Shown: positions 2,249-5,377 of the stretch, one piece after another
How positions within the stretch are numbered: position 1 is the first letter of the stretch
Layout of the letters: every line of letters starts with the position of its first letter
Origin: Bradyrhizobium sp. AT1
GTDB lineage: Bacteria > Pseudomonadota > Alphaproteobacteria > Rhizobiales > Xanthobacteraceae
Assembly: GCF_001590795.1 (NCBI RefSeq)
Contig: NZ_JXDL01000001.1
Coordinates: 2,034,421-2,098,420, forward strand
Reading direction: 5' to 3'
DNA: 64,000 nt
Notes under the pieces: model-generated
What the model saw: the letters and a program-made list of their open reading frames with translations, nothing else
Told to the model about the DNA's origin: nothing
Databases searched by the model: none
Program-made: the position numbers and the translations under genes

Positions 2249-2812
2249 CTAGCTCCGCCCTTCGAAATAGGTGCACAGCTGGCTCGTCTCCTTCGGGGCA
2301 ATGGATTTCCGAAACAGCCGGCACTTGAAATGAAGGTCTTTGCCCTCTCCACTCTCGACCAGGAAGACGCATTGACCGCACACGTCGGTGTGATGACGGC
2401 GCTCGGCGACATCGAGACCGACGAGCACGTGGCGAAGCGTGTCGCGCAGCCGGGATCGATCGGAGCCCTCGAGTGCTACGATCTGGTCTCGCAGGGCGTT
2501 GATCGGATCGCGCTCCAGCAGCTTCTTGCCTTCGCCCGTGACACATAGCGTGATCGAACGCTTGTCCTCCGCCGAAGGTTTGCGGACCACCAATCCCTTG
2601 TCCAGGAGCGTAGCGGTAATCTGGGACACGCCGCTGCGGGTCGTCCCCAGAAAGCCCGCGAGTGCCGTCGGGGTCCTCGACAGCCTGTTTGCGAGAGCAA
2701 GAAAACGCAGCGCCATCCATTCGCGATCGCTCAGGCCCGAACGGGTGCCTTCAAAGAGCCACGAGCCGGCCGATTGCACGAGGAGTTGGACGATTTCAGT
2801 TGCCATGCTCAT
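2249..2812 (-). CDS. MarR-family regulator with C-terminal cysteine cluster
   Basis: Winged-helix repressor of 187 residues, longer than the usual 140-160. The helix-turn-helix and wing fall at about residues 45-100 (TALAGFLGTTRSGVSQITATL, then LVVRKPSAEDKRS). The extra C-terminal 45 residues contain Cys145-x2-Cys148, Cys164 and Cys180, a spacing that suggests a bound metal or Fe-S cluster; this is inference. Two start codons, at 2812 and 2806, are possible. It is transcribed away from the flavin monooxygenase at 3361, the usual arrangement for MarR and the enzyme it controls. A perfect 13-base inverted repeat lies 30 bases upstream of the start and is the likely operator. Confidence 0.88.
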   Translation of the reverse strand: MSMATEIVQLLVQSAGSWLFEGTRSGLSDREWMALRFLALANRLSRTPTALAGFLGTTRSGVSQITATLLDKGLVVRKPSAEDKRSITLCVTGEGKKLLERDPINALRDQIVALEGSDRSRLRDTLRHVLVGLDVAERRHHTDVCGQCVFLVESGEGKDLHFKCRLFRKSIAPKETSQLCTYFEGRS

Positions 2813-2841
2813 TGATCAACGCCGACGGGAAAACGGCGGTT

Positions 2842-2870
2842 CGTCATCTCGATCAGGGATCGAGATGACG
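2842..2870. promoter_or_regulatory. Perfect 13-bp inverted repeat upstream of marR-like gene
   Basis: CGTCATCTCGATC (2842-2854) and its exact reverse complement GATCGAGATGACG (2858-2870) flank a 3-base spacer. It begins 30 bases upstream of the MarR start, in or next to the promoter or 5' untranslated region. MarR proteins bind palindromes, so autoregulation is the simplest reading. A hairpin in the leader mRNA is the alternative. Confidence 0.6.
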
Positions 2871-2915
2871 CCGCATTCGGTGAAAGCTGAATTTTGGCTC
2901 GGGACTGGTTGAGTC

Positions 2916-2930
2916 CGGTATATCGTACCG
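2916..2930. promoter_or_regulatory. Second small palindrome in the divergent region
   Basis: CGGTA (2916-2920) and TACCG (2926-2930) form a 5-5-5 palindrome between the divergent marR-like and monooxygenase genes. It may be a further operator or overlap a promoter. The arms are short and chance cannot be excluded. Confidence 0.3.
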
Positions 2931-3191
2931 TGAAGTCCGGACGGCGCGGAGACACGCCTGCGGCCGCGACTCCAGCCCGATTGAAGGATTGCGGATAGCC
3001 CGATCATTCCGCGAGGGGAACACCGCAAGACTACGCACCGCGCTCACGTCAAAGTTACGAGCACCCCATCGCGGCGGCTCTCGGCCGCATGTCTTCATGT
3101 CACGCGAACCTGTGCTGCGTGGAGAGCGCACACTCGTTCCATTGACGAAGCTGCGACCAAACGACTAAATTGGCCACGTCGGAAAAGGCAG

Positions 3192-3355
3192 ACTTGGTTT
3201 GGTAAGCCCAAGTCCTTTCGGTAACGAAAGCTCTGGTCTTTGGCCTCGTGCCTGAGATCCCCACGACGAACACGCCCGCTGTTCAAGCGGTCAGGCGTTC
3301 GTCCGTGAGGTCCTCAGGTCTGGGAAACGCTCCGGTCGAACATCGACAACGGAGC
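3192..3355 (+). promoter_or_regulatory. Structured 5' leader that sequesters the ribosome binding site
   Basis: A run of hairpins lies just before the monooxygenase start. (1) ACTTGG 3192-3197 pairs with CCAAGT 3208-3213. (2) CTTTCG 3215-3220 pairs with CGAAAG 3225-3230 across a GTAA tetraloop of GNRA type. (3) A long arm pairs 3251-3256 (CCTGAG) with 3313-3318 (CTCAGG) and encloses GACGAAC 3265-3271 / GTTCGTC 3297-3303 and CCGCT 3276-3280 / AGCGG 3286-3290. (4) GCTCCG 3329-3334 plus GTCGA 3335-3339 pairs with TCGAC 3343-3347 plus CGGAGC 3350-3355. The last hairpin buries the GGAG Shine-Dalgarno at 3351-3354, six bases before the ATG. This is the architecture of a translational riboswitch or RNA thermometer; the ligand or signal is unknown. 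Confidence 0.5.
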
Positions 3356-3360
3356 ATTTT

Positions 3361-4890
3361 ATGCAGATTCCCGACACTCCCCTCTATGACGTCATCATCG
3401 CAGGCGCCGGTCCCGTCGGCCTGTTTCTGGCTTATGAATTGCGGATGGCCGGCTGCTCGGTGCTGGTCCTAGAGAAGGCGAGAGACCCGCACTCGCCGCT
3501 CAAGAGCCTGCCTTTCGGGTTGCGTGGTCTTTCGGTGCCGACGATCGAGAGCTTCGACCGTCGTGATTTGCTGGAGGATCTGAAAGCTCGTGCGGCGAGC
3601 CGAGACACGCCGGCGCCCTCGCACTGGATGCAGCAGCAGCGTCGCCCTGGCGGTCATTTCGCCGGCATCCAGTTCTTCTACGATCAGATCGACGCAACGC
3701 AATGGCCATACCGCCTGCCCGGCCCGGTCGGAAGCATCGCGGCCGACATGGCAGGCATCGAGGCCGTGCTTGCGATCCGCGCCGAGACGCTGGGCGCGGA
3801 GATCCGGCGCGGCTGCGGCGTCGAGGCCTTCAGGCAATCCACGGATCGCGTGACTGTCGACACGGCCGGCGAAACCGTCCATGGCCGCTGGCTCGTCGGT
3901 TGCGACGGCGGGCGCAGCAGTGTGCGAAAGGCAGCCGGGATCGGCTTCACCGGGACCGATCCGGAATTCACCGGCTATTCCGCGCAGGTCGAACTGGCCG
4001 ATCCGGCTCTGCTCGCGCCGGGTCGCCATTACACGCCTTCGGGGATGTACACCTATGCAGCGCCGGGGACGATCGCGATGGTCGATTTCGACGGCGGCGC
4101 CGCGCACCGCAGCGCGTTGGAGCGCGACCATGTCGAGGCGGTGTTGCGCAGGGTTTCAGGCACCGACGTGACGGTCACTGCCCTGCGGCTCGCCACCACC
4201 TGGACCGACCGCGCCTATCAGGCAACGGACTATCGCGCGGGCCGCGTCTTGCTGGCGGGTGACGCCGCGCACATCCATTCGCCGCTGGGGGGCCAAGGCC
4301 TGAACCTCGGCCTTGGCGATGCCATGAACCTCGGATGGAAGCTCGCGGCAACCATTCGTGGCGATGCGCCCGCCGGGCTGCTCGATAGCTATTCGACCGA
4401 GCGACATCCGGTGGGAGCACAGATCCTCGACTGGTCGCGCGCCCAGGTCGCCCTGATGCGCCCCAGCAGGAGTTCGCGCGCACTCGAAGCCATTATCCGC
4501 GATCTCATCAACACGCGCGACGGCGCGACCTACTTCGCCGCGCGCGTCTGGGGCGTGTCCCTCCGCTATGACCTCGGCGGGGGCCATCCGCTGGTGGGGC
4601 GAAGTGCGCCCGACTTCGAGCTCGGCGATGGGACAAGAATAAGCGAGCTGCTCAGAACAGGGAAAGGACTGTTGCTGGATTGCGGCGCGCAGCCATCGCT
4701 TCAAGCGCTCACGAACCGCTGGCGCGGCCGGATCAACTATGTTGCAAGCGAGGTCAGGGATCGATTGGGCTTGATCGCGTTGCTCGTGCGCCCCGACGGC
4801 GTCGTAGCCTGGGCCGGCGAACAGGCTGCCGACGACGTGGACACGTCTCAGGCCGCGGCACGATGGTTCGGTGAGCCCAGCGGCCGCTAA
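3361..4890 (+). CDS. FAD-dependent aromatic monooxygenase (PheA/TfdB/MhpA-like)
   Basis: Class A flavoprotein hydroxylase of 509 residues. It has the N-terminal Rossmann motif GAGPVG (15-20), the DG motif GCDGGRSS near 180, the FAD ribityl motif AGDAAH near 300 followed by GGQGLNLGLGDAMNL, and a C-terminal thioredoxin-like domain from about 395. The expected activity is NAD(P)H- and O2-dependent hydroxylation of an aromatic or polyketide-like ring in the cytoplasm; the substrate is not predictable. GGAG at 3351-3354 sets the start. The gene is alone on its strand, divergent from the MarR-type regulator, and preceded by a leader that can hide its ribosome site, so two layers of control are likely. 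Relatives include antibiotic-inactivating hydroxylases, so detoxification is as plausible as catabolism. Confidence 0.9.
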   Translation: MQIPDTPLYDVIIAGAGPVGLFLAYELRMAGCSVLVLEKARDPHSPLKSLPFGLRGLSVPTIESFDRRDLLEDLKARAASRDTPAPSHWMQQQRRPGGHFAGIQFFYDQIDATQWPYRLPGPVGSIAADMAGIEAVLAIRAETLGAEIRRGCGVEAFRQSTDRVTVDTAGETVHGRWLVGCDGGRSSVRKAAGIGFTGTDPEFTGYSAQVELADPALLAPGRHYTPSGMYTYAAPGTIAMVDFDGGAAHRSALERDHVEAVLRRVSGTDVTVTALRLATTWTDRAYQATDYRAGRVLLAGDAAHIHSPLGGQGLNLGLGDAMNLGWKLAATIRGDAPAGLLDSYSTERHPVGAQILDWSRAQVALMRPSRSSRALEAIIRDLINTRDGATYFAARVWGVSLRYDLGGGHPLVGRSAPDFELGDGTRISELLRTGKGLLLDCGAQPSLQALTNRWRGRINYVASEVRDRLGLIALLVRPDGVVAWAGEQAADDVDTSQAAARWFGEPSGR

Positions 4891-4990
4891 AGCATGATCC
4901 GGAAAAATGTGCAGCGGTTTTCCGGAAAGATCATGCTCAAACAACAACCTAAAGCGCGATGGCGATTCATCCCAATCGCATTGCGCTTTA
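4889..4990. repeat. Paired dispersed palindromes of Bradyrhizobium type
   Basis: Two imperfect palindromes sit side by side. The first runs from GCATGATCCGGAAAA at 4892 to GATCATGC ending at 4936. The second runs from TAAAGCGC at 4950 to GCGCTTTA ending at 4990. This composite resembles a repeat common in Bradyrhizobium and Rhodopseudomonas intergenic regions (from memory). It lies between the convergent monooxygenase and membrane-protein genes and supplies the stop codon of the latter. Confidence 0.65.
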
Positions 4991-5377
4991 GGCCTGTTCG
5001 TCGGGACACCACCGCACGATCAGGAACGAGCTGGCCGCGGCGCTGGCGAGCAGGCACGCCACGACGAGAACGCTGGACAGAAGTGAGATCAGACCGTGCT
5101 CGTGAGCGCTGATCGCGGCGGTGCCAAATGTCAGCCAGCACCCGGTCGCGACAAAGCTCGATACGGCCTGCAGAACAGCGCACCGCCTCACCGGCTGATA
5201 GTTGAGGAATTTCAGGAGCAACGGCCCGCACGTGACTGCAAGCGCAAAGACCCATCCAAGGATCAGCGTCGGCACGTGAAAGAGATCGGTCAGACTGGGG
5301 GACAAGGCGGCACCTGGGGCTTCCGGAGTTTGACGTCCTCGACCGAAGTCCGGTTCAAATAGCTCGCGACGCGACAA
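4988..5377 (-). CDS. Small integral membrane protein of unknown function
   Basis: Not recognised. From a TTG at 5377 the product has 129 residues, with a short polar N-terminus and three hydrophobic stretches starting at VPTLILGWVFALAVT, AVLQAVSSFVATGCWLTFG and LISLLSSVLVVACLLASAA. The frame stays open upstream to 5548, but that part overlaps the YunG-like gene and has shadow-like composition. TTG at 5377 follows AAGGTGAG and lies 10 bases after the upstream stop, which suggests an operon with the YunG-like gene. GTG at 5275 is an alternative. The TAA stop lies inside the dispersed repeat, so the original C-terminus may have been different. Confidence 0.5.
   Translation of the reverse strand: MSRRELFEPDFGRGRQTPEAPGAALSPSLTDLFHVPTLILGWVFALAVTCGPLLLKFLNYQPVRRCAVLQAVSSFVATGCWLTFGTAAISAHEHGLISLLSSVLVVACLLASAAASSFLIVRWCPDEQA

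Follow-up and report, generated by a model that had tools for sequence, protein, structure and literature searches.

The 5' leader of a class A flavin monooxygenase gene in Bradyrhizobium sp. AT1 is likely to be a cis-acting translational ON-switch of a newly found RNA family, with a toxic aromatic compound as its inducer and detoxification as its output. Its fold is conserved, its Shine-Dalgarno sequence (SD) is hidden by pairing and its associations with particular kinds of gene recur; judged from its sequence relatives, the family stands ahead of resistance- or detoxification-like genes in many soil and plant-associated proteobacteria. An earlier note on this DNA had offered a translational riboswitch, a thermometer or an attenuator. 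The riboswitch part is supported computationally because of covariation, a core common to several gene families, the hidden SD, mutually exclusive pairings and the lack of an Rfam match, while the thermometer and the leader-peptide attenuator come out weaker.

The leader lies in the analysed stretch of 64,000 nucleotides (the window), in a long intergenic region between a MarR gene and the monooxygenase gene (Table 1). The nearest named model of the monooxygenase is rifampin monooxygenase, with a score under that model's cut-off, and among solved structures that enzyme and polyketide oxygenases such as PgaE and CabE come closest. Transcription probably begins near 3178 rather than beyond 3329, a start there being what the earlier note had named as fatal to its reading, because conservation sets in sharply at 3178 in the alignment of homologous loci (variable upstream, near-invariant from GTCGGAAAAGG onward), six bases past TAAATT, and TTGACG/TAAATT is the sole promoter-like pair that the scan gave upstream of the leader. 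Conserved columns precede GTCG in 78 loci from other species as well, at -35/-34 (T 0.78, T 0.79) and at -12/-11 (T 0.77, A 0.83). On the 3' side of the monooxygenase gene, at 4892-4991, two palindromic stretches (GCATGATCCGGAAAA...TTTTCCGGAAAGATCATGC and CTAAAGCGCGATGGCGATT...AATCGCATTGCGCTTTAG) resemble dispersed intergenic repeats.

Table 1. Leader elements and neighbouring genes, in window positions
Feature	Position	Strand	Evidence or remark
MarR gene	2249-2812	minus	divergent from the monooxygenase gene
Promoter-like elements TTGACG (3142-3147) and TAAATT (3166-3171)	3142-3171	+	promoter scan; conserved columns elsewhere
Whole structured leader (core and expression platform)	3178-3360	+	kept in 65 same-genus leaders upstream of the orthologous gene
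Conserved core (model R3)	3178-3267	+	82.6 bits, E 5.6e-19; pair counts
P1 hairpin (3191-3197:3208-3214), loop with conserved GGTAAGC	3191-3214	+	both-sided change in 5/7 pairs
P2 hairpin, CTTTCG-GTAA-CGAAAG	3215-3230	+	both-sided change in 4/5 modelled pairs
P3 hairpin (3235-3240:3254-3259 and 3242-3244:3250-3252)	3235-3259	+	fold to 3268 and of the whole leader
Segment b, CACGACGAAC	3262-3271	+	hardly varies within the genus; its CGAC is the P0 partner of a
Segment c, GTTCGTCCGTG, partner of b (P4) or d	3297-3307	+	pairing comparisons
Segment d, CGCTCCGGTCGAAC, anti-Shine-Dalgarno strand	3328-3341	+	also complementary to c
P5, Shine-Dalgarno-hiding hairpin (GCTCCG:CGGAGC and GTCGA:TCGAC)	3329-3355	+	fold, alignment
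Shine-Dalgarno GGAG, six bases before ATG 3361	3351-3354	+	spacing same in 64/65 same-genus leaders
Class A flavin monooxygenase (FAD_binding_3 and Rng_hyd_C)	3361-4890	+	domain matches

The hairpins that had been read from the letters alone are all found in the sequence: the consecutive stems, the GNRA hairpin, the nested arm (about 3246-3323 in the predicted fold) and the final 6+5-bp hairpin, which pairs the GGAG ahead of the start codon in sequence and fold alike. The fold of 3150-3400 (-91.5 kcal/mol) lies three standard deviations beyond dinucleotide shuffles (-76.4, sd 5.0; z -3.0), and none of the 200 shuffles is as stable. Two details needed amending. The GNRA tetraloop is present in P2 but incidental, relatives carrying other loops there; and the interval first drawn, 3192-3360, holds the hairpins but omits a 5' strand, GTCG at 3178-3181, which pairs with CGAC at 3264-3267. 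This pairing, P0, encloses the core, within which invariant AAAAGGCAG, P1, P2, GCTCTG and P3 follow one another. Some relatives have P2 enlarged by tandem copies: in L074, L068, L070 and L071 the arm consists of similar tandem hairpins of CGAAGTCCTTTCGAAA-like units, about four of them in L074, where P2 looks like a small repeat array. P3, which is mutually exclusive with the arm stem 3250-3256:3313-3319, covaries in other types and is almost invariant in the monooxygenase type.

Within the genus, the leader is matched at E 0.001 or better in 66 of 265 Bradyrhizobium genomes. Sixty-five leaders were extracted, two short matches without a monooxygenase (L075 and L076) being dropped before alignment, and an orthologue of the monooxygenase follows the leader in all 65. 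The reverse test agrees: the leader lies directly ahead of 33 of the 36 orthologous monooxygenase genes (E 1e-150 or better, 146 genomes), and a search for the core gave no convincing match at the other three. Two of these leaderless orthologues seem, by eye, to follow another coding sequence closely. The third (L251, genome G015) has a divergent TetR-type gene as its neighbour, the two being separated by two palindromic repeats, and here RNA control has apparently been swapped for protein control. The compensatory changes that the earlier note had asked of homologous leaders are found: in alignment A3 they occur in 7 of 45 pairs, and both-sided cells total 41 where shuffles average 15.3 (sd 2.8). 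A3 holds 32 of the 65 leaders, those with enlarged P5 loops and many near-duplicates being left out, and its P5 counts are underestimates since MAFFT misaligned the SD between groups.

Covariation is also seen beyond the genus. Model R3, of 90 positions and built from 44 diverse members, describes a core with the consensus GUCG-RAAAAGGCAG-P1 (GGUARGC loop)-P2-GCUCUG-P3-GAGAACCC-CGAC. In a plain MAFFT alignment of 44 cores (A6), both-sided change occurs in 14 of 21 pairs, a count reached by 7 of 500 shuffles, and both-sided cells number 119 against 39.9 (sd 5.0) in shuffles, none of the 500 being as high; slid pairings give at most 34. For A6, four of 46 non-redundant cores were left out (L109, L138 and L160, whose 3' ends had been wrongly detected, and L201, simply omitted) and two were added (L031, L047), L127 and L129 having failed core detection beforehand; a further alignment, A5, holds 19 of 25 prepared rows. 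Since the helices of A3, A5 and A6 were placed manually after inspection of the alignments, the numbers of cells paired in them are partly circular. Model R2, covering the monooxygenase and the MFS/NmrA types, shows both-sided change in 10 of 28 pairs (no shuffle of 500 as high), and antisense matches of model R1 to the near-palindromic P4 arm are not independent. When 89 loci are fitted to R3 (A7), both-sided change is seen in 16 of 21 pairs, two of them belonging to P0. This helix is paired in all 86 distinct rows, with GC replaced by UA in two of them and UA by CG in one (L250). That R3 recovers 89/89 is a consistency check and not a test, because a pattern or a model had already picked out every one of these loci, which include 43 of the 44 on which R3 was trained. 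The element thus has a riboswitch hallmark, a conserved structured 5' leader with compensatory changes.

A second hallmark is its position in cis, upstream of functionally related genes. Model and pattern searches place the core of about 90 nt (GTCG:CGAC, P1-P3) in alpha-, beta- and gamma-proteobacteria, ahead of genes for flavin monooxygenases, Tet-like MFS efflux pumps, VOC/glyoxalase (bleomycin-resistance-like) proteins and SDR/NmrA proteins. R1 matched 22 of 296 genomes in 9 of 47 other genera of the family. Eight of its loci (L109-L116, 34-65 bits) have no monooxygenase behind them; by eye and translation, seven precede an MFS gene and L115 precedes an NmrA-like gene. The pump at L110 has as its best named models Tet(42) and Tet(A)/(B)/(C), all under curated cut-offs; by solved structure its nearest relative is NorA, and by family model Tet. 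The Tet-like MFS genes behind L114, L116 and L122 look broken, their translations giving no full-length frame. R2 had matches in 19 of 347 genomes of the order, three of which were attributed to chance; of 337 genomes of the class it matched 2, including the window's own. It added VOC/glyoxalase genes, which belong to the glyoxalase/bleomycin-resistance superfamily, and an ABM-domain gene as clients. Matches L131-L133 (E 0.002-0.009) and L117 (E 0.07), which lack the conserved unpaired blocks, were set aside by eye as chance.

An exact pattern, the form that the core takes outside most Bradyrhizobium, matched 106 stretches across the species genomes of GTDB; the genera represented include Rhizobium, Ensifer, Sphingomonas, Caulobacter, Azospirillum, Variovorax, Massilia, Duganella, Collimonas, Ralstonia, Roseateles, Rhodanobacter and Solimonas. 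Eighty of the 106 were analysed as loci, with clients counted if they lay on the same strand and no more than 1.5 kb downstream: a VOC gene in 67, a monooxygenase in 7 and a Tet-like MFS gene in 4. The remaining two are a locus cut by its end and one that begins an SDR gene (L173). Across the phylum, R3 matched 9 of 329 genomes, one match judged chance, and added L248, before a weakly matching NmrA-like gene in another family, and L250, before a VOC gene and with a changed P0; L249, without the conserved unpaired blocks, was set aside as chance. The window's genome has one convincing R3 copy, the leader itself, a second match (21.6 bits) lacking every conserved unpaired block and being attributed to chance. 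Two copies before different clients occur in Rhizobium rhizogenes NBRC 13257 (VOC and MFS) and in genome G702 (monooxygenase and VOC), as would be expected of a regulon.

The family is also found on plasmids. The window leader has matches in fourteen plasmid records, of which two extend over no more than 32-34 bases, and R3 confirmed 7 of 9 fetched plasmid loci (one from a separate query), the two short ones being unconfirmed. On the Pantoea dispersa plasmid NZ_CP045217.1 (L254, 4001-6124), the leader, an SDR gene and a TCR/Tet MFS gene apparently make up a single operon; it is flanked by IS5/IS903-type elements, has MarR and isochorismatase genes nearby and is possibly a mobile module. On the Sphingobium plasmid NZ_CP119128.1 (L256, 3479-4351), the annotated monooxygenase CDS, itself annotated short, starts just before the matched leader, and its start is probably misplaced. 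Searches of E. coli genomes with the Pantoea leader and of phages with the window leader gave no match.

The predicted expression platform, with segments c, d and e (the SD region), lies 3' of the core. The CGAC of b doubles as the 3' strand of P0 and as part of P4, in which b as a whole pairs with c, and d is complementary to c (3297-3301:3337-3341 and 3303-3305:3333-3335), which leaves two predicted and mutually exclusive states: core closed and SD free, or core opened and SD hidden. The sequences of b, c and d differ among the monooxygenase, MFS, NmrA and several VOC platforms while the b:c, c:d and d:e complementarity is kept, most weakly for d:e; both-sided changes in b:c occur in other types, and in L115 b, c, d and the SD have all changed together with every pairing kept. 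From 165 collected leaders, non-redundant sets of 55 and 57 were used for swaps and for SD opening. Pairing c with the leader's own d gives a more stable helix than the average swapped d does in 47 of 55 leaders, and not in 8 (-19.1 against -16.3 kcal/mol, or -15.7 across gene classes). For d:e the native pairing is better in just 37 of 55, and the 55/55 obtained for b:c is circular, c having been picked as the best partner of b, so that c:d alone is informative.

Opening the SD costs 7.6 kcal/mol in the native leaders against 4.1 with a shuffled platform (57 leaders). The average leader of the monooxygenase, MFS, VOC and NmrA types conceals its SD better than the shuffles do; L135 and L110 are among the leaders that hide it no better. 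Forcing P0 cuts the opening cost by a mean of 1.9 kcal/mol, against 0.06 in shuffles. The gain differs between types: 3.3 in NmrA (n=2), 2.4 in MFS (n=9) and 2.1 in VOC leaders (n=24), then 1.1 in monooxygenase leaders (n=21) and 0.4 in the window leader. Just 32 of 57 leaders gain 1 kcal/mol or more. Among shuffled platforms, 120 of 456 equal or exceed the gain of their native counterpart, and in the monooxygenase type 57 of 168 do. In the window leader, the SD hairpin P5 persists when P0 alone is forced, and P0 and c:d forced together give -62.1 kcal/mol, 22.6 above the minimum of -84.7. In four Rhizobium VOC leaders (L123, L125, L147 and L203), five to seven T lie between a c:d-like helix (for example ATCCCGG/CCGGGAT) and the SD, an arrangement that could be an intrinsic terminator.

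The clients share a theme, the handling of aromatic or antibiotic-like compounds, which leads us to propose an ON riboswitch that acts on translation and responds to a toxic aromatic compound. During transcription, the first 90 nt would fold into the core, closed by P0 (GTCG:CGAC) and holding P1-P3 with the strongly conserved unpaired stretches. The ligand, a small toxic molecule that is most likely aromatic and polyketide-, phenol- or quinone-like, would bind the core so that P0 persists, c pairs with d and the SD is free. Without ligand, c would pair with b (P4), P0 would open, d would pair with the SD (P5) and translation would be off. The output would be detoxification of the inducer, by the monooxygenase here and by Tet-like efflux, VOC and oxidoreductase genes elsewhere. 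Ligand binding, the chemistry of the ligand, the direction of control and a kinetic commitment are what we infer from this arrangement. Since the forced-P0 energies are unfavourable, the switch needs a kinetic route, a strong contribution of ligand energy or some other logic; in the window leader the ON state is not the one that the energies favour, and reaching it would call for a decision during transcription. Such a kinetic decision seems the likeliest route, because in the predicted folds the nascent RNA to 3268 forms exactly P0, P1, P2 and P3, and P4 displaces P0 only once c is made.

A small molecule need not be what holds the core closed. It could instead be the landing site of a regulatory protein or small RNA that holds or opens P0, the RNA itself binding no small molecule: the conserved unpaired AAAAGGCAG, GGTAAGC and GCTCTG could be protein contacts, and the folding alternatives would serve equally well. 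Yet MarR, the sole regulator tested as a neighbour and the one to which the earlier note had given a part in control, adjoins the leader only in the window and in one relative (L039) among the 65 extracted leaders, which rules it out as a general partner, and the examined downstream proteins match enzyme and pump families, not RNA binders. We consider such a landing site unlikely. Reversed logic, with the ligand turning expression off, or a mixture of platforms with transcription termination in some members, is quite unlikely in our view; the Rhizobium VOC leaders L123 and L203, with ATCCCGG...CCGGGAT and then six or seven T, speak for it, but the SD is on average better hidden than in shuffles in all four types, and detoxification genes are normally induced by their own substrate, as in TetR/MarR systems.

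The hiding of GGAG by P5 in the monooxygenase leaders would also suit an RNA thermometer, in which heat melts P5 and frees the SD. For this, however, the SD hairpin alone would suffice, whereas strong conservation and covariation sit in the first 90 nt, at a distance from the SD, and the core is common to unrelated genes with other SD hairpins; opening the SD of the window leader costs some 9.6 kcal/mol, which is high for growth temperatures, and a thermometer is very improbable. A ribosome-stalling leader-peptide attenuator of the erm/cat type is hardly tenable: many members have UAA or UAG in the P1 loop and AAAAGG resembles an SD, but 84 of 89 cores have no in-frame ATG, GTG or TTG before the P1-loop stop (3 have an in-frame start and 2 lack such a stop), and a peptide ending there was rejected. 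Recent common ancestry without any regulatory function, to which the 70-95% identity of most same-genus leaders to the window's would point, is already contradicted by the divergence of the flanks upstream of 3178 in the same alignment and by compensatory changes accumulating across three classes, and we give it next to no credence.

The translational ON riboswitch may represent a class of its own. At the gathering score, no Rfam 15 family matches the window leader, and thus neither the known riboswitches in it nor T-box include it; relaxing to E 10 over 2800-3460 brought up two snoRNA models (E 3.7 and 7.8), far below gathering, and 13 loci of the family yielded only one tRNA, outside the leader. 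The yjdF riboswitch is present in Rfam. The earlier note knew of no described riboswitch of this shape, which still holds: literature searches and term finds in passages of PMC7266159, PMC8632094, PMC11109978, PMC6429828 and PMC2864571 turned up no such element, a statement as good as those searches and Rfam 15. We therefore rate the leader, from its sequence family, as a candidate new class within the riboswitches, with ligand binding predicted.

Known systems do the same kind of work by other means. TetR and MarR repressors control Tet pumps and flavin monooxygenases; they share with the leader the job and the kinds of gene, and a leaderless monooxygenase orthologue adjoins a divergent TetR gene, but they act as proteins at DNA and the leader as RNA in the transcript. 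A bolder reading, possible and put forward tentatively, is that the candidate riboswitch directly binds an antibiotic-like aromatic natural product (a polyketide, anthraquinone or tetracycline-like compound) and serves as one portable module, in effect an RNA stand-in for TetR/MarR, that controls several resistance-type genes with no kinship to one another in alpha-, beta- and gamma-proteobacteria; this reading takes in the plasmid with its Tet-type pump between insertion sequences. Functionally nearest to the proposed role is the yjdF (azaaromatic) riboswitch, which, according to PMC4793209, is of the orphan type, binds diverse aromatic heterocycles, is tied to mitigating toxic phenolic or polycyclic compounds and can activate expression with its ligands; its genes differ, and the leader has no Rfam match. 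Leader RNAs have been put forward before as antibiotic sensors that govern resistance genes: the integron-borne leader of aac/aad genes has been proposed as an aminoglycoside sensor (PMC7588185), although it serves aminoglycoside resistance genes and is set beside the window leader by description only. The guanidine-I (ykkC) riboswitch likewise precedes efflux pumps and other genes of mixed kinds (PMC7266159), but the genes are different and the leader has no Rfam match to ykkC.

If confirmed, the leader would define a new riboswitch class whose regulon resembles a resistance cassette: a rifampin/polyketide-type flavin monooxygenase, a TetA-like pump, a VOC protein of the glyoxalase/bleomycin-resistance superfamily and oxidoreductases. 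To our knowledge, few natural riboswitches answer toxic aromatic compounds, and natural riboswitches that sense antibiotics are disputed. The leader RNA would then be a ready biosensor, and a shared inducer would reveal the purpose of these genes in rhizobia and other plant and soil bacteria.
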